A stretch of 37,194 nt of DNA from Olavius algarvensis Gamma 3 endosymbiont. Lineage in GTDB: Bacteria; Pseudomonadota; Gammaproteobacteria; GCA-001735895. Both the position numbers and the translations under genes were made by a program. Location of the stretch: assembly GCA_001735895.1 (NCBI GenBank), contig DS021198.1, positions 875,363-912,556 on the forward strand. Direction: 5' to 3'. Below the pieces are notes generated by a model, which ran no database searches, was not told the DNA's origin, and saw nothing but the letters and a program-made list of their open reading frames with translations. The first letter of the stretch is position 1. Each line of letters opens with the position of its first letter. This document shows, piece after piece, positions 8,770 to 18,418 of the stretch.

Positions 8770-9486
8770 TTACTTAATTTCGGTCTTGTAGCTGAACATG
8801 TCGCTACGACCCTTGGCGATCCGAATTTCGATTATTTCATTGTCACGTGTATAGGTTTTGCGATGCAGTACCAGCACGGGTGTATTCATTTCGGCTTCCA
8901 GGATGCGGGCGGTTTTTTCGGTAATCATTTCCGCGGTCAGCGTTTCCTCAGCACGCACCACCGGGACGTCGTATTTGTCGACCACCAGCGCGTAAAACAA
9001 ATCCGGAATGTGGATATCTTCGTTTTCGAGTCCGGGCAGGACATCCGCGCGCCAGCGTGAGAATTCAACCATTACGGGCCTGTTCTCGATATAACCCACC
9101 CGTTCGATATAAAGCAGATCAGTCGTGTCTGGGACACCCATCTTATTGCAGATTTCGGCGTTACCGGTTTCGATATAACGTTGCGTCGTCTGCTTGTCGA
9201 TACGTACGCTATCACCCTCGATATCGCCGTAAGACACGTAGTTGAACAAGCTATTGTTGAAATCGATCCGCGAGACGTATGTTCCCTTGCCTTGATGCCG
9301 GTATAGCTTGTTTTCCCAAACCAGGTTATCGATCGCTTTCTTCACGGTACCCTGGCTGACACCTAACAAGCTGGCCAGCTGCGGTTCAGACGGGATTAAG
9401 TCGCCTGATATCAATTGTCCCGAGTCGATAAGTACGTTGATATGGTCTTCAACGATCCGGTAAAGCGGTTTGGCAGCCTGAATCAT
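8770..9486 (-). CDS. GntR-family (HutC/UTRA type) transcriptional regulator
   Basis: 238 residues. The N-terminal winged helix-turn-helix covers about 5-75 (LIPSEPQLASLLGVSQGTVKKAI, then wing HQGKGTYVS). A UTRA effector-binding domain covers about 95-233 (YIERVGYIENRPVMVEFSRW, TAEMITEKTARILEA). HutC-type regulators usually repress neighbouring uptake and catabolic genes until the substrate or its CoA or phospho form binds the UTRA domain. The gene is divergent from the transporter/enzyme genes and faces a 20-bp palindrome. The start is supported by GAGGAAG just before the ATG. Likely local, autoregulated regulator of the island; the effector is unknown. Confidence 0.93.
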   Translation of the reverse strand: MIQAAKPLYRIVEDHINVLIDSGQLISGDLIPSEPQLASLLGVSQGTVKKAIDNLVWENKLYRHQGKGTYVSRIDFNNSLFNYVSYGDIEGDSVRIDKQTTQRYIETGNAEICNKMGVPDTTDLLYIERVGYIENRPVMVEFSRWRADVLPGLENEDIHIPDLFYALVVDKYDVPVVRAEETLTAEMITEKTARILEAEMNTPVLVLHRKTYTRDNEIIEIRIAKGRSDMFSYKTEIK

Positions 9487-9618: not shown

Positions 9619-11115
9619 ATGGACTTTATCAACTATTTTGGCAATGTATTTACGCCGTATCACCTGATGCTGCTGCTCGGTGGTACCACGGCAGGATTGA
9701 TGCTAGGGGCTTTGCCCGGACTCAGTCCCACCATGGCGGTAGCGTTGATCATTCCATTCACCTTTCATATGCAACCCGATAGCGGGTTGATTTTACTCGG
9801 CGCCATGTATACCGCGACCGTAGCCGGGGGCGCAATTAGCGCTATCCTGGTAAACGTACCCGGAGCCCCGGCCAATATCGCCACCGCGCTGGACGGGCAC
9901 GAAATGGCGCGCCAGGGTAGGGCCTCCGAAGCACTTCATTTTTGTTTTTTCAGCTCGTTTGTCGGCGGCATCTTCGGTATCCTGATTCTGATATTTTTTA
10001 CGCCTCCGTTAGCTGAACTGGCACTCAAATTTGGACCCACCGAACTCTTCTGGATCGCTATTCTCGGCATCACGGTAATCGGTACCATCGGCAGTAAGTC
10101 GGTTTTGAAGGGTTTGATGGCAGGCTTGTTTGGATTGGCGATTTCAACCATTGGCGACAATCCCATGCTCGGTGAGCAACGCTTTGTTTATAGCGATCAT
10201 CTGGAAAGCGGAATTCATATCGTCGCCGCATTAATCGGTCTGTTTGCGTTACCTCAGATACTCACCCTGCTGGAAGAATGTCGTAAAGGCAACCGAGGTT
10301 CCATGTATGCACTGAGCCAATCGAGATGGTATCAGTCGATGAATTATAATTTACGCCGGGCCAAGGCGTTGACGATCGGATCCTTCGTTGGCGCCATCGT
10401 CGGCGTTATCCCGGGCGCCGGGGGGCAGATTGCGGGACTTGTCGCCTACGATCAGGTTAAAAAAACTAGCGACAACCCGCTGAATTTCGGTCAGGGCGAA
10501 CCGGATGGAATCATCGCCGCCGAATCGGCGAACAACGCCATGGTCGGACCCTCGCTAGTACCCTTGCTAACCTTGAGTATCCCCGGCAGTCCGACCGCGG
10601 CGGTGCTATTGGGCGGACTGCTCATTCATGGCCTGTTTCCCGGTCCCGACCTGTTCACTATGCATGGCGAAGTGATATGGACCTTCATCGATTCACTAAT
10701 CGTCGCGCAGGTATTCATGCTGGTGATCGGCTTGTTTTTGAGCCGTCACAGCGGCTGGATTATGAAGGTACCGCCCAACTATATGGCGGCATCGATTCTG
10801 GTTTTGGCCGTATTCGGCACCTATAGCATCCAGTCGAGTTATTCAGATGTGTTAATCATGATGGTGCTTGGCGTCATAATGTACTTCGCCAGCAAATTAG
10901 GTTTCAGCCCCGCCCCGGTAGTGCTCGGAATCATCCTCGGTCCGATTGCCGAGGACAATTTTCTGCAGGGCAAGTTAATCGGCGAAGCCGGCGACGGCAT
11001 GTTTAACTATTTCTTCAGTGGCACGATCAACCTGGTGCTAATCTTGGCCACCGTCGGTTCGATCGCGTATAGCGTGTACGCCGGCCACAAGATGAAAAAG
11101 AGGGCCACAGCATGA
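9619..11115 (+). CDS. Tripartite tricarboxylate transporter large membrane subunit (TctA type)
   Basis: 498 residues with about twelve hydrophobic segments. Family features include the repeated glycine/proline motifs GALPGLSPTMAVALIIPFTF (near residue 30) and VGVIPGAGGQIAGLVAYD (near 260), plus SIPGSPTAAVLLGGLLIHG. TctA carries the solute across the inner membrane using a cation gradient, with solute delivered by the periplasmic TctC-type protein. Ribosome site GAGGAGG lies 7 bases before the ATG. It overlaps the TctB-type gene by four bases. The transported compound is not readable from the sequence; the downstream enzymes suggest a small sulfonated or carboxylated acid. Confidence 0.95.
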   Translation: MDFINYFGNVFTPYHLMLLLGGTTAGLMLGALPGLSPTMAVALIIPFTFHMQPDSGLILLGAMYTATVAGGAISAILVNVPGAPANIATALDGHEMARQGRASEALHFCFFSSFVGGIFGILILIFFTPPLAELALKFGPTELFWIAILGITVIGTIGSKSVLKGLMAGLFGLAISTIGDNPMLGEQRFVYSDHLESGIHIVAALIGLFALPQILTLLEECRKGNRGSMYALSQSRWYQSMNYNLRRAKALTIGSFVGAIVGVIPGAGGQIAGLVAYDQVKKTSDNPLNFGQGEPDGIIAAESANNAMVGPSLVPLLTLSIPGSPTAAVLLGGLLIHGLFPGPDLFTMHGEVIWTFIDSLIVAQVFMLVIGLFLSRHSGWIMKVPPNYMAASILVLAVFGTYSIQSSYSDVLIMMVLGVIMYFASKLGFSPAPVVLGIILGPIAEDNFLQGKLIGEAGDGMFNYFFSGTINLVLILATVGSIAYSVYAGHKMKKRATA

Positions 11116-11564
11116 TAAATCTGAAAAATATCGAACAGGCCGCGGCCGTTTATGCCCTGATCGCGGCAAGCGTTTTCGCTTTCCTTTCGTTTTACGGCAC
11201 CGATGGCGAAACCTACTTGTTTCCGCGCATCATCGCGGTGGTGCTTGCCTTGATGTCGGTGTCGCTGTTAATCGCCAACTGGTCATCGAAGAACGACAAT
11301 CGTTCCGATAGCGGTTATTTCGCCGAAATCTGGCCCGGGATGGTGGTCGGCCTGGTTTTCCTGTTGGTGATGGAAGACCTCGGTTTTTACGTCAGTTCTT
11401 TTTTTGCATTCCTGGCCATTTTGCTGCTTTACGGCGTGCGCCCAATCACGGACATCAAGGCTTTGATCATGAAGTCGAGCGCGGCCCTGGCATTCATGGC
11501 CATCTTGTATTTTCTGTTCTGGAACGGGTTAAACGTCAGAACCCCGACCGGAATTCTTTTTTAA
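11112..11564 (+). CDS. Tripartite tricarboxylate transporter small membrane subunit (TctB type)
   Basis: 150 residues with four hydrophobic segments (about 13-30, 38-57, 80-105 and 115-137). Its small size, hydrophobic profile and four-base overlap with the large subunit gene fit TctB. TctB proteins are poorly conserved, so assignment leans on context. It forms the membrane complex with the large subunit. A 60-base gap with an AGAGAGGAGG ribosome site leads to the binding-protein gene. Confidence 0.9.
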   Translation: MINLKNIEQAAAVYALIAASVFAFLSFYGTDGETYLFPRIIAVVLALMSVSLLIANWSSKNDNRSDSGYFAEIWPGMVVGLVFLLVMEDLGFYVSSFFAFLAILLLYGVRPITDIKALIMKSSAALAFMAILYFLFWNGLNVRTPTGILF

Positions 11565-11624: not shown

Positions 11625-12545
11625 ATGAAACCAACCAAACTCAAACCATCCAGTGCAATCTTGCTGGCGATGCTAAGCGGAGCTGTCTTGCTCGGCCTGT
11701 CAACCGTTACCAGAGCGGAATATCCGGATCGGCCGATAGGCGTCATGGTCGCCTACAATCCGGGGGGCGCAACCGATTTTCAGGCGCGCATCGCCACCCT
11801 GGCATCCGCCAAGGAAAAAGACGGGGGATTTGTATCGGTAGGCCAGCCTATTTACGTTATCAACAAGCCGGGTGCCGGTGGGCGTAAAGGTTGGAACTGG
11901 TTTGCCGACAAGGCCGCGAAAGACGGCTACATGTTGGCCGCTTACAACGTGCCGCATTTTATTGCGCAATCCATTGTTTTCGATACTAAATACAACGTCG
12001 ACAACCTGGAGCCGGTGGGTAACTGGGGTGCGGATCCGGCGGTGCTAATCGTCGGCAAGGACAGTCAATTCAATTCGGCCACGGAACTTGTCGATTACGC
12101 CAAAAGTAATCCCGGTAAGGTAACCGTCAGCGGCGCCGGTAAATTTGTCGGCCATCATATCGCCCACCTGCAGTTTGAAAAAGCCGCCGGGATCAAGCTT
12201 AAATATGTTCCTGGAAAAGGTGGTGTCGGCGCGATGAAACTGGTCAAGGGAGGCCAGGTCAAGGCGGGTTTTAACAACCTGTCGGATGCCGCGCGTGCGG
12301 CCACCGACATCAAAATCCTGGCGGTGGCCGACCTCGAACGTCATGATTTCCTGCCCGATGTCCCGACCTTTAAGGAACTGGGAATTTCGGTAGACAATTC
12401 CAGCGTCAACTTCCGCGGACTGATGGTACCCAAGGGCACTCCGCAGGCGGTAATCGATCATCTCGCCAAATCGGTTCTGTTCAGGACAGAAAACATCGGC
12501 AAGATGAAACAGACCAATTCACCGCGTTCGCATCATGTCTCGTGA
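11625..12545 (+). CDS. Tripartite tricarboxylate transporter periplasmic binding protein (TctC type), 3' end frameshifted
   Basis: 306 residues as read. A signal peptide with a probable cut after A31 (TVTRA-EYPDRP) is followed by the TctC/Bug fold, with typical motifs YNPGGATDFQARI, VINKPGAGGRKGWNWFA and LPDVPTFKELG. The protein captures the solute in the periplasm and presents it to the TctA/TctB subunits. The last residues after TNSP (PRSHHVS) do not look like the family. The expected C-terminal helix is present in another frame at 12526-12612. One extra base near 12525, or two missing, would explain this. The true protein, if intact, would end at 12612 and be about 328 residues. Either a sequencing or assembly error or a recent mutation removing the last helix. 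Confidence 0.88.
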   Translation: MKPTKLKPSSAILLAMLSGAVLLGLSTVTRAEYPDRPIGVMVAYNPGGATDFQARIATLASAKEKDGGFVSVGQPIYVINKPGAGGRKGWNWFADKAAKDGYMLAAYNVPHFIAQSIVFDTKYNVDNLEPVGNWGADPAVLIVGKDSQFNSATELVDYAKSNPGKVTVSGAGKFVGHHIAHLQFEKAAGIKLKYVPGKGGVGAMKLVKGGQVKAGFNNLSDAARAATDIKILAVADLERHDFLPDVPTFKELGISVDNSSVNFRGLMVPKGTPQAVIDHLAKSVLFRTENIGKMKQTNSPRSHHVS

Positions 12546-12612
12546 TGAAGTTATTTCGATGTGGAAGGAGCGACAGACGGCGTTAAGCGAATTGTTGAGA
12601 GATCTGAAGTGA
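12526..12612 (+). pseudogene. Displaced C-terminal codons of the TctC-type gene
   Basis: This frame reads VRIMSRDEVISMWKERQTAL and then SELLRDLK before the stop at 12610-12612. The pattern, a conserved MSxxEV..MW..R stretch and a helix, is the usual end of TctC/Bug proteins. It continues the frame of 11625 only after a one-base shift at about 12525. Confidence 0.75.
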
Positions 12613-12674: not shown

Positions 12675-14108
12675 GTGGCATTCCAGACGACAGCTGAAGC
12701 ACAGGACAAGGTCGGCAAGCTCATTGCTCGCGCCCGCAACGCGCAAAAGCTGTATGAACATTTCGACCAGCAGCAAGTGGACGAAGTTGTGACCGCGGTT
12801 GGCTGGGCGATCGTCAATGAGACCAACAATTGTCTGTTGACCGAAATGGCGATCGGCGACACAGGAATCGGTAAATACGAAGATAAAATTCGTAAAAACC
12901 ACCGCAAGACGATGGGCCTGTTACGTGATCTCCAGGGCGCAAAGACGGTCGGCGTCATTGCGGAGTATCCCGCCAAAGGGCTGATCGAAATTGCCCGCCC
13001 GGTTGGCGTCGTCGGCGCCGTCGTGCCTTCCACCAATCCCGTGGCGACTCCCTTTAACAAGGTCATTAATGCCCTCAAGGGGCGAAACGCCATCATTCTG
13101 GCGCCATCGCCGAAAGGACAGAATGTCTGCGCCAAGCTGGTTGAACTGATTCACGCCGAATTAAGCCGGGTCGGCGCACCGACTGAGCTGGTGCAGCACC
13201 TGGATTTACCGGTCAACAAGATCGAAACCTACGAGTTGATGCGCCAGGTCGATCTGATTGTCGCGACGGGTTCAGGAAACAACGTACGCGCCTGCTACGA
13301 AAGCGGTACCCCGGCGGTCGGGGTCGGCGCCGGCAATGTCCCGGTAATCGTCGACAGCGGAGCCGATCTTGCCGATGCCGCTGCCAAAATCTGCGCCTCC
13401 AAGACCTTCGACAATGCAACCAGTTGCTCTTCAGAAAACAGTCTCGTCATTCACGATGCCGTCTATGAGGATATGGTCGCGGCCTTACAGCGGCAGGGTG
13501 GTTGGCTGCTGAATAGCGAAGAAAAACAACGCTTACAGGATGTGTTATGGGTCGACGGCCATCTCAGTCGCGATGTGATTGCGCAAACCGCGGACAAGAT
13601 TGCGCACTTGGCCGGGTTGTCGCGCGACGACGAAGAACCAAGCATCTTGATGGTGGAAGAAAGCGGTATTGGCGCCGACCATCCGTTTTCCGATGAAAAA
13701 CTCAGTCCGGTGCTTACCCTGTACCGCGCGCGCGATTTCGACTACGCCTTTACCATCGTGGAACAAATTCTCGATTTCAAAGGTAAGGGACATTCGGTGG
13801 GGATACATACCGACAATGATGCACATGTCATGCGTTTGGGTCTCGAGATGCCAACCTGTCGGGTTATCGTCAACCAGGCGCATTGTTTCGCGACCGGCGG
13901 CAGTTTTGACAACGGCTTGCCGTTCTCCCTGTCGATGGGCTGCGGCTCCTGGGGCGGTAACAGCATTCCCGATAACATGAATTATCGTCATTTTCTTAAT
14001 ATTACCCGGATCGCGCGTACGATTCCCGCCGTCGAACCCAGTGTTTCCGATATCTTCGGTGAATTCTGGCAGCGGCATGATATCCGTGGCGACGATGGTG
14101 ATATTTGA
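12675..14108 (+). CDS. CoA-acylating aldehyde dehydrogenase, probable sulfoacetaldehyde dehydrogenase (SauS-like)
   Basis: 477 residues of the acylating aldehyde dehydrogenase family (EutE/AdhE-N/SauS branch). The probable catalytic cysteine is C251 in DNATSCSSENS. Also visible are VATGSGNNVRACYESG and GVGAGNVPVIVD (nucleotide binding), and the C-terminal FATGGSFDNGLP with CGSWGGNSIPDN. SauS of Cupriavidus reduces sulfoacetyl-CoA to sulfoacetaldehyde with NADPH and release of CoA. The adjacent ligase would provide the CoA ester. The GTG start is chosen because GAGGGGAG ends four bases before it. The stop abuts the ligase ATG. An acylating enzyme of this class is near certain; the sulfoacetate assignment rests on family resemblance recalled from memory and on gene order. 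No xsc is present in the window. Confidence 0.85.
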   Translation: MAFQTTAEAQDKVGKLIARARNAQKLYEHFDQQQVDEVVTAVGWAIVNETNNCLLTEMAIGDTGIGKYEDKIRKNHRKTMGLLRDLQGAKTVGVIAEYPAKGLIEIARPVGVVGAVVPSTNPVATPFNKVINALKGRNAIILAPSPKGQNVCAKLVELIHAELSRVGAPTELVQHLDLPVNKIETYELMRQVDLIVATGSGNNVRACYESGTPAVGVGAGNVPVIVDSGADLADAAAKICASKTFDNATSCSSENSLVIHDAVYEDMVAALQRQGGWLLNSEEKQRLQDVLWVDGHLSRDVIAQTADKIAHLAGLSRDDEEPSILMVEESGIGADHPFSDEKLSPVLTLYRARDFDYAFTIVEQILDFKGKGHSVGIHTDNDAHVMRLGLEMPTCRVIVNQAHCFATGGSFDNGLPFSLSMGCGSWGGNSIPDNMNYRHFLNITRIARTIPAVEPSVSDIFGEFWQRHDIRGDDGDI

Positions 14109-15665
14109 ATGGATACCGTAGCTTCGATCATCGATCGCAATGCTGCAAGTCAACCCGACGCCGTGTTCCTGGTGGCGCCCGAAATCAACTATCAACTCAG
14201 TTATAACAGCCTGGCCGATTACGCCAAACGCGTTACGGAAAAACTGGATGGCCTCGAACTGGGCAAGGGAGAAAAGGTCGCATTCCTGATGAACAACGGC
14301 CTTTGGACCGCAATCCTGTTTCTCGGCACGATGTATGCCGGGCGAACCATATTACCGCTGAATGCGGTCAGCGGCGAAGCCAATCTGGAGTACGTGATCA
14401 ACCACTCCGACGCCAAAGTGTTGTTCATCGAAGAGGAATTCATACAGAAGTTTTCGCGCTTGCTGGAAAAGATTCCCGCCTCGGTACTTGTGATCAAAAC
14501 TTTACGCGACACCGGCCCCCTGTGGCCGCAACGCGATGCCTCGAAAGCCACGCCGCAGGTAATTCCGGACGCCGACGACGAAGCCTTGCTAATTTATACA
14601 TCGGGTACCACAGGCCGCCCCAAGGGAGTAGTGCTAACCCATCGATCGGTTATAGCAGGGGGTGAAAACACCGCGGTCGCGCACGACTTGGTCGCTGCTG
14701 ATCGCGCGCTATGCGTATTGCAGCTATATCATATCAACGGTGAAATGGTGACTTTGATGGGACCGCTGGTCAGCGGCGGTAGCGTGGTAATGCCTACGCG
14801 GTTTAGCGTTAACGAGTTCTGGGGATTGATCGACAACTGGAATTGCAGCTGGTTCAGCGTGGTACCGACAATCATCGCGTATTTGCTGGAGCAGGCCGAA
14901 CGCCTGAAGCAAGCCCCATTCGATGCGGGGCAAAGACCGCGCCTGCGTTTCGGGCGTTCGGCATCGGCCCCGCTTTCACCCGACATGCATCGCCAGTTCG
15001 AACAGCGGTTTTCGGTTCCAATCGTGGAAACCATGGGGCTTACCGAAACGGCCGCGCAGATTCTTTCCAATCCGATGCCGCCGGCTCGGCCTAGGTATGG
15101 CTCACCGGGCATCGCCATTGGAAACGAAGCGAAAATCGTCGACAAAAAAGGGCGTGAGCAGCCGCGCGGTAAACCCGGTGAGTTGATGATTCGCGGCGAT
15201 AACGTGATGAAGGAGTACTACAAAAATCCAGAGGCGACGCGCGCGGCCCTGACCAGTGAGGGATGGTTGTACACGGGTGATCTCGCCTACCAAGACGCTG
15301 ACGGCTATTTTTATATCACCGGCAGGTTAAAGGAAATTATTATCAAGGGCGGTGAAAATATTGCCCCGCGGGAAATAGACGAAACCTTGTATCTGCATCC
15401 GGCTGTGCTCGAAGCGGCGGCTTATGCGGTCGCGGATAAGGCCTACGGGCAGGAAGTTTTCGCCTGCGTTGCACTGAAACCCGGCTGCTCCTGTACTGCC
15501 GAAGAGTTACGCGAGTTTTGTATCGACAAGCTGGGTAAGTTCAAGGCGCCACGCGAAATTTCCTTTATGCAGGAGTTGCCAAAAGGCCCGTCGGGAAAAA
15601 TTCAGCGGCGCATTTTGTCGGAAGCGGCACCACAGGTGGCCGAACAGATTCCGGTATCGGACTGA
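14109..15665 (+). CDS. AMP-forming acyl-CoA synthetase, probable sulfoacetate-CoA ligase (SauT-like)
   Basis: 518 residues of the class I adenylate-forming (ANL) family. Motifs in order: the P-loop-like YTSGTTGRPKG near residue 160, MGLTETAAQ near 307, YTGDLAYQDADGYFYITGR near 390, GGENIAPREID near 417, and the C-terminal catalytic-lysine motif GPSGKIQRR near 500. Such enzymes activate a carboxylate as acyl-AMP and transfer it to coenzyme A in the cytoplasm. The ATG directly follows the dehydrogenase stop with no gap, so translation is coupled and the two enzymes probably act in sequence: acid to CoA ester to aldehyde. This pair matches sauT and sauS. Other short acids remain possible as substrates. 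Confidence 0.85.
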   Translation: MDTVASIIDRNAASQPDAVFLVAPEINYQLSYNSLADYAKRVTEKLDGLELGKGEKVAFLMNNGLWTAILFLGTMYAGRTILPLNAVSGEANLEYVINHSDAKVLFIEEEFIQKFSRLLEKIPASVLVIKTLRDTGPLWPQRDASKATPQVIPDADDEALLIYTSGTTGRPKGVVLTHRSVIAGGENTAVAHDLVAADRALCVLQLYHINGEMVTLMGPLVSGGSVVMPTRFSVNEFWGLIDNWNCSWFSVVPTIIAYLLEQAERLKQAPFDAGQRPRLRFGRSASAPLSPDMHRQFEQRFSVPIVETMGLTETAAQILSNPMPPARPRYGSPGIAIGNEAKIVDKKGREQPRGKPGELMIRGDNVMKEYYKNPEATRAALTSEGWLYTGDLAYQDADGYFYITGRLKEIIIKGGENIAPREIDETLYLHPAVLEAAAYAVADKAYGQEVFACVALKPGCSCTAEELREFCIDKLGKFKAPREISFMQELPKGPSGKIQRRILSEAAPQVAEQIPVSD

Positions 15666-16436: not shown

Positions 16437-16550
<114 letters not shown>

Positions 16551-16588: not shown

Positions 16589-18418
16589 ATGAGTTATCAG
16601 GTACTAGCGCGCAAATGGCGGCCGGCCAATTTCCAGCAAATGGTCGGTCAGGAGCACGTATTACAGGCATTGGTCAATGCGCTCGACAGTAATCGACTGC
16701 ATCATGCTTATCTGTTTACCGGCACCCGCGGGGTCGGTAAAACGACGATTGCGCGTATTTTTGCCAAGTCGCTCAACTGTGATGAGGGTATAGTTTCGCA
16801 ACCCTGCGGCAGCTGCTCTTCCTGTCTCGAGATCGATGAAGGCCGCAGTGTCGATTTAATCGAAATCGACGCCGCCTCGCGCACCGGGGTTGACGATATG
16901 CGCGAGCTGCTGGACAACGTGCAATATGCGCCCACCCGCAGCCGCTTCAAGATCTACCTGATCGACGAAGTACACATGTTGTCCAGGCATAGCTTTAACG
17001 CCTTGCTGAAAACTCTCGAAGAACCGCCGCCACACGTAAAATTTTTGTTGGCCACCACCGATCCGCAAAAGGTTCCGGTGACCGTTTTGTCGCGCTGCCT
17101 GCAATTCAATCTGAAGCGCATGTCCCGCTCGCAGATATTGTCACAATTGACGTTCCTAACCGAGCAGGAAGCGGTGGCAGCGGATGCGGCGGCCCTCGCG
17201 CAACTGGCGGGCGCAGCGGACGGCAGCATGCGAGACGCCTTAAGCCTGCTGGACCAGGCGATTGGCTACGGTGGCGGCGCGGTCAAACAGGCCGCGGTCG
17301 AATCGATGCTGGGCTCGATATCGCGGGATTACCTGCGGCGTTTATTCGACGCCCTGGAACAGCAACATGCGGCAAACCTGTTGCGCGCGGCGCGCGCGAT
17401 TGTCGAACACAATCCCGACTATCAGCGGGTCTGCGCTGAAATCCTGAGCCTGTTGCAGCAGGTCGCGCTGTATCAGCGCGACGCAGCGCTGATTGACGAA
17501 ACCCATTTGCCGCTCGAATTATTACAGCAGTACAGCGCGGCCTGGTCGCCCGAAGAAGTCCAGCTGTATTACCAGATCATATTGCAGGGTCGGCATGATT
17601 TGCAGATCAGTCCGGATGAAGCGGCCGGATTCGAGATGCTGATGTTACGCCTGATCGCTTTTTCGCCGGTAGCGGAATCGACGCTCGTGGCGGACCCGGT
17701 AAAAAAAAAGCCTGAACTAGATTCGACGCGGCATCCTGCTCCAGAACCAGCGTCGATATCAAAACCGGCGGCAGTCAGCGCCGACCCGACGCCGGTCGGG
17801 AATGCGCGCACGATCGCTGGAGGAGTGGAATCGCTGACCGAGCCGGCGGCAGTCGAGCAATCCGCCTCCCCGATCGGTCCCGAAGCAGCGGTACGACCCG
17901 CATCCAGGTTTAATCCCGAAGTTCCCGGCCACGACGCCTCTGCGGCGACTCCGACGCTCGCGGAGTTACCCGAGGACCCGGATGTAAACGTAGTCCCGCA
18001 AGCGGTTCAAGCCAGTGGCGCGGCGCCGGCGGCTTTGGACTGGTCCGGTCTCGCCTACCGTCTGGGGCTGGTCGGTTTGGCACAGGAAATCGTTGCCAAT
18101 AGCCTGCTCGAATCCTGTCGGGAGGGTAAGCTGAAACTGGGGCTGCTGCCGGAGATCCATGAACTTGCCAACTCCCAAATCGAATCCGAAATAAGGCAGG
18201 CCCTGGAACAAAAACTTGAGGTATCATTGCAACTGGAACTGATCGCCAGGGATACGCTCCGCGGAGAAACTCCTCTGCAAGCAAAGCTACGGCGGCTGGA
18301 GCAGGAACGGCTCGCAGCTATCGAGGCGATCAGGGAAGATGCGGCGGTGTGCAAATTACAGCAGGTTTTTGCCGCCGAACTCGACGAACAAAGCGTGGTC
18401 AAGATCGACAATACTTAG
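16589..18418 (+). CDS. dnaX: DNA polymerase III tau subunit (and gamma by frameshift)
   Basis: 609 residues. AAA+ clamp-loader ATPase: Walker A GTRGVGKT (45-52), zinc cysteines C64, C73, C76 and C79, Walker B LIDEVHMLS, and the SRC motif in VLSRCLQF. The domain III collar runs to about 365, then a Pro/Ala/Ser-rich linker (about 375-480), then the tau-specific C-terminus that in the family contacts the polymerase and helicase. A nine-A run at codons 371-374 would allow a -1 slip giving a short gamma form of about 375 residues. The ATG at 16589 follows the 4.5S terminator closely and lacks a strong ribosome site. First gene of the classical dnaX-ybaB-recR cluster. Confidence 0.97.
   Translation: MSYQVLARKWRPANFQQMVGQEHVLQALVNALDSNRLHHAYLFTGTRGVGKTTIARIFAKSLNCDEGIVSQPCGSCSSCLEIDEGRSVDLIEIDAASRTGVDDMRELLDNVQYAPTRSRFKIYLIDEVHMLSRHSFNALLKTLEEPPPHVKFLLATTDPQKVPVTVLSRCLQFNLKRMSRSQILSQLTFLTEQEAVAADAAALAQLAGAADGSMRDALSLLDQAIGYGGGAVKQAAVESMLGSISRDYLRRLFDALEQQHAANLLRAARAIVEHNPDYQRVCAEILSLLQQVALYQRDAALIDETHLPLELLQQYSAAWSPEEVQLYYQIILQGRHDLQISPDEAAGFEMLMLRLIAFSPVAESTLVADPVKKKPELDSTRHPAPEPASISKPAAVSADPTPVGNARTIAGGVESLTEPAAVEQSASPIGPEAAVRPASRFNPEVPGHDASAATPTLAELPEDPDVNVVPQAVQASGAAPAALDWSGLAYRLGLVGLAQEIVANSLLESCREGKLKLGLLPEIHELANSQIESEIRQALEQKLEVSLQLELIARDTLRGETPLQAKLRRLEQERLAAIEAIREDAAVCKLQQVFAAELDEQSVVKIDNT
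17701..17715 (+). promoter_or_regulatory. Programmed -1 frameshift site in dnaX
   Basis: The frame reads GTA AAA AAA AAG CCT GAA. Slipping back one base on A-AAA-AAG gives AAA AAA GCC TGA, so the stop at 17713-17715 comes two codons after the slip. Stem TCGACGC (17723-17729) with GCGTCGA (17750-17756) may stimulate. Same logic as gamma production in Escherichia coli. Confidence 0.8.

Follow-up and report, generated by a model that had tools for sequence, protein, structure and literature searches.

An out-of-frame C-terminal tail in a TctC-type binding protein gene of the Olavius algarvensis Gamma 3 endosymbiont is most likely an assembly artefact

The gene for a TctC-type solute-binding protein in the draft genome of the Olavius algarvensis Gamma 3 endosymbiont changes reading frame shortly before its end, and we conclude that the resulting out-of-frame C-terminal tail is most likely an artefact of assembly. 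The source genome comprises 4.87 Mb in 22 contigs and is 87% complete. The gene lies on contig C1 within the 37,194-nucleotide stretch that we analysed, which we call the window and whose positions we use throughout. Comparison with relatives suggests, with a probability of roughly 0.84, that the frameshift and a nearby short stretch are consensus errors in the draft assembly. The real gene would most likely encode a TctC-type binding protein at full length, about 330 residues.

As assembled, the gene is a forward-strand open reading frame of 306 codons (11625–12545) that matches PF03401 (E = 1e-32; 114.2 bits against a Pfam gathering threshold of 27). Its product is 82% identical to that of relative G028 over residues 1–300 and 84% identical to that of relative G015 over residues 14–300. 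The family frame is kept up to about position 12519, and the open reading frame terminates in ...KMKQTNSPRSHHVS, the final six residues of which have no counterpart. From 12508 the adjacent frame stays open as far as a stop codon at 12610–12612, and from 12529 it translates to RIMSRDEVISMWKERQTALSELLRDLK. By conservation with the homologous loci L033 and L034, the forward-strand segment 12529–12612 is the C-terminal tail of the binding protein together with its stop codon. The in-frame tail of the close homologues is absent from the 11625 frame and present in the adjacent one. Alignment to 20 close homologues placed the passage from one frame to the other at 12519–12528 on the same strand. In a frame-aware alignment to the 20-row profile, a single frame change gained 92.1 bits, whereas the best gain among 300 shuffles of 12521–12612 was 49.5 bits, and none of the 300 reached 92.1.

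To see how relatives end, we translated the TctC homologue from 26 of 27 homologous loci, leaving out L053, whose contig stops within the gene. The 20 close homologues (L033–L052) all run through the motif [NG]SP[VL]xxxxR[DE][EQ]VxxMW in one frame, and an ending of the 306-residue type was found in none of the 26. The first-pass annotation had proposed a frameshift near the end of the gene with the terminal helix continuing to 12612, and had named homologues with a natural 306-residue type of ending as the observation that would speak against it; the proposal is borne out, and a search of the 26 translations for such homologues returned none. Loci L055–L059 are distant relatives with tails of their own. 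A much earlier break, at 130 residues, occurs in the TctC homologue of L054 (Aliamphritea spongicola AP025283.1, record bases 706138–716923, from a record titled a complete genome). At that locus TctA, SauS and the ligase are each covered in part only by their best single match, so that the operon may be broken as a whole.

Just upstream of the frame change, at 12475–12500 on the forward strand, the gene is about 9 nucleotides shorter than all 20 close homologues, in agreement with an earlier remark that the region around 12475–12515 looked short for the family. The deficit corresponds to three residues relative to the close homologues and to four relative to L046 and L050, and we compared the DNA of this stretch for seven of the 20. 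A match to the residues DRK in the third frame prompted us to consider several compensating frame changes at 12476–12498. Two extra frame changes at the short stretch gained only 5.8 bits, a gain equalled by 61 of 300 shuffles, and we dropped this explanation. The short stretch may represent one deletion or several events. Pfam coverage also failed to discriminate the short form, as the profile match ends at position 225–228 in three of four intact homologues as well.

We then compared the tail itself with its intact counterparts. It is identical to L033 at 22 of 27 residues and to L034 at 21 of 27. Base differences fall at third codon positions in 13 of 24 cases against L033 and in 14 of 21 against L034, and of the 18 tail codons that differ from L033, 13 are synonymous. 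Because the identity between the window tail and L033 equals that between the intact L033 and L034 (five tail residues differ, counted by eye, leaving 22 of 27 identical), we saw no sign of an old, decaying pseudogene. The tail is less conserved than the body of the gene: 5 of 27 codons change the residue relative to L033, compared with 2 among the 40 codons of a body segment, which counts against the error reading.

A recent real mutation would leave the same picture as a consensus error. We asked how often genes elsewhere in the assembly appear broken. The nearest named relatives by the TctC gene are Gammaproteobacteria, several of them Cocleimonas. A first rate estimate was dominated by wrong-strand shadow open reading frames and was superseded by a test with non-overlapping open reading frames, in which a stop was ignored if it fell within 25 residues of the start or 10 of the end. 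When open reading frames of G015 and G028 were searched against 1.6 Mb of contig C1, a frameshift or stop was found in 10 of 135 query rows. The 10 rows represent nine genes, TctC being matched by two queries, which gives 9 of 134 after merging, or about 7%. By NCBIfam, the broken genes include those for lipoamide dehydrogenase, RimP, Mpl and ArgD. Two further candidates were dropped as start-site differences: G015C1|122936, whose stop falls at residue 8, and G015C3|33087, whose stop falls at residue 21 and whose match is inside the window.

In the reverse direction, with open reading frames of the source genome searched against the relatives, 4 of 125 rows were flagged, and inspection left no clear break in the relatives. 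One row, with 17 stops, was a shadow open reading frame and probably not a gene; another, on the strand opposite to the small SRP RNA that precedes dnaX, was probably not a gene either; the row of a 236-residue protein was a break in the source genome viewed from the other side; and in G|399134 the stops precede the conserved part, so that it is a start-site difference. The two directions differ (9 of 134 versus 0 of 125, Fisher p = 0.0035; p = 0.020 with one reverse row counted). Queries from Cocleimonas flava lent no support: in a small sample they gave no clear break in the source genome, where about 1.7 breaks would be expected at the rate found with G015 and G028. Of 23 rows 2 were flagged, one being a start-site difference and the other two adjacent genes that C. 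flava has as a fusion. The same queries against the relatives gave 0 of 13 flagged rows, and in control searches against C. flava itself 0 of 22 and 0 of 15 rows were flagged.

For the deciding test, we searched the 1.6 Mb with 72 E. coli K-12 proteins that we take to be essential or housekeeping, of which 57 had a match. Forty-eight aligned within a single frame, free of stops, across 80% or more of their length. Four were flagged, and for the other five (cdsA, pnp, rimP, folP and obgE) the match covered less than 80%, the pnp and folP matches containing N. The flags on murD and murC both fall on the already counted Mpl locus with its stop and were not counted again, which leaves two clear new breaks, in rpsC and lpxA. 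The rpsC gene (L206 and L207; G000:C1:679653-680260), which codes for ribosomal protein S3, is divided between two frames, and an N stands some 100 bases ahead of the point of breakage. A family search over the whole genome returned its two halves only, making this the sole copy found. Likewise, lpxA is split over two frames (L208 and L209; G000:C1:1036828-1037588) and is the sole copy found; the lpxA family search, also over the whole genome, gave no match reaching the cut-off. The genes rpoB, rpoC, dnaE, ileS and gyrA were intact, where about one break was expected, which counts, like the 48 unbroken matches, against the error reading. The match to valS (L200; G000:C5:130944-135227) breaks off at a run of N. 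Ribosomal protein S3 is indispensable to a living cell. No living cell could carry a frameshifted sole copy of rpsC, and we conclude that indel errors exist in this assembly, that breaks of this kind are mostly consensus errors, and that the TctC break is best interpreted likewise.

Runs of N are frequent in the part of contig C1 that we examined: there are 108, totalling 232 kb, of which 33 are exactly 50 long and 16 are single, and some may not be gaps. Two such runs flank the window, and the TctC gene is 12.5 kb from the nearest; local sequence quality at the gene is not visibly poor. We considered an unpolished long-read assembly and set it aside, since the many runs of N suggest a gapped scaffold, and we leave the sequencing technology open. 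Nor do homopolymers serve as a single cause, because by eye only some of the nine breaks lie at runs, such as six G in a trimethylamine-methyltransferase-like gene. A literature search on sequencing errors found nothing usable.

The rival that survives best is a real and recent pseudogene, in which the terminal helix would be lost and uptake through the transporter impaired. In its favour, the change of frame is clear, the missing codons add a second lesion no more than about 50 bases away, and TctC is the only gene flagged among the G015 and G028 orthologues within the window, the others found there being unflagged. Against this, similar breaks occur in the sole copies found of rpsC and lpxA, which are hardly real losses, TctA, TctB, SauS and the ligase have complete genes, and the tail retains its conservation. 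We therefore regard a recent pseudogene as unlikely. Were the population truly without the terminal helix, the transporter would be in the course of being lost while the adjoining sulfoacetate enzymes are kept, and we give this outcome a slim chance. Between the two outcomes offered by the first-pass annotation, helix loss and sequence error, the latter is the better supported because the sole copies found of rpsC and lpxA and about 7% of the tested orthologues are broken.

A natural variant of 306 residues with a C-terminus of its own is very improbable: the 11625 frame is indeed open to 12545, but no homologue among the 26 ends in this way, and the adjacent frame still holds the usual tail in conserved form. 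Recoding, by programmed frameshifting or otherwise, that yields the full protein would fit the coding-like tail in the adjacent frame, but we give it almost no credence, as each of the 20 close homologues has the whole protein in a single frame, inspection by eye showed no evident slippery heptamer at 12515–12528, a second length lesion lies nearby, and there is no hint of a use for the short form.

Taken together, the results point most probably to an ordinary artefact of assembly, in a gene cluster of a type already known. Nine of 134 orthologues look broken, as does the gene of an indispensable ribosomal protein, and it is therefore unsafe to call gene losses or pseudogenes from this assembly alone without reads.

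The neighbourhood of the gene suggests what the full-length protein would do. In the window, TctC is encoded together with the large membrane subunit TctA (9619–11115, forward strand, PF01970, E = 1.2e-135) and the small membrane subunit TctB (11112–11564, forward strand, PF07331, E = 1.4e-13), both intact. A GntR-type regulator gene (8770–9486, reverse strand; NCBIfam GntR-family matches below their cut-offs) is divergent from the transporter genes. Downstream of TctC on the forward strand lie an intact gene for SauS, the acylating sulfoacetaldehyde dehydrogenase (12675–14108; NF047625, 742.3 bits against an NCBIfam equivalog cut-off of 600), and an intact gene for an AMP-forming acyl-CoA ligase (14109–15665) that is SauT-like by position, with acyl-CoA ligase family matches below their cut-offs. 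The arrangement is conserved: near TctC in the 27 homologous loci, several of which are cut by contig ends, we found TctA in 27, SauS in 19, the ligase in 18 and the GntR gene in 15. A relative of the ligase follows SauS in 18 of the 27 loci, L039 and L045 being cut by contig ends and L054 partial. Further downstream in the window are a bacterial small SRP RNA (RF00169, 59.3 bits against 40; 16446–16541) and, just after it, dnaX (16589–18418), which is one 609-codon open reading frame in the window and two open reading frames of 379 and 248 codons in G015. The split in G015 may bear on dnaX frameshifting or may be a break in that genome.

In the proposed pathway, the exported binding protein would capture a substrate, by context probably sulfoacetate, for TctA–TctB, and the SauT-like ligase and SauS would convert sulfoacetate to sulfoacetyl-CoA and on to sulfoacetaldehyde. 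By analogy with known clusters, putative sulfoacetate uptake is our best inference for the role of the transporter. The best match to sulfoacetaldehyde acetyltransferase (Xsc, TIGR03457) scored 334.6 bits against a cut-off of 676.4 in this genome, which is 87% complete and carries long runs of N. The cluster is of mild ecological interest. A literature search combining sulfoacetate with either Cocleimonas or TctABC found no paper.

Among known systems, TctC/Bug receptors of family PF03401 include BugD (2f5x) and Bug27 (2qpq). The window copy scores over the family cut-off, and the intact homologue L034 aligns to BugD over residues 30–310. Unlike these receptors, the window copy leaves its frame ahead of the terminal helix and lacks about three codons just before that point. 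For the cluster as a whole, the available portion of a study of sponge symbionts describes sauST clusters in which a tripartite tricarboxylate transporter, called a putative sulfoacetate transporter, replaces SauU (PMC12625764); in that portion, sulfoacetate-type clusters of a like kind are already published as putative uptake and degradation clusters. As presented there, the sauST cluster of Cupriavidus necator H16 resembles ours in SauS and in a ligase in the place of SauT, and differs in having the single major-facilitator transporter SauU where the window has TctABC (PMC12625764). The hybrid sauST cluster of Arctic sponge symbionts, with the tripartite tricarboxylate transporter SauXYZ, as far as the accessible text goes, shares SauS and a SauT-like ligase beside TctABC (PMC12625764). 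Relative to that description, no sulfoacetaldehyde acetyltransferase over the family cut-off was found in the source genome, the window adds a divergent GntR-type regulator, and relatives of the window cluster occur in Cocleimonas and other Gammaproteobacteria.
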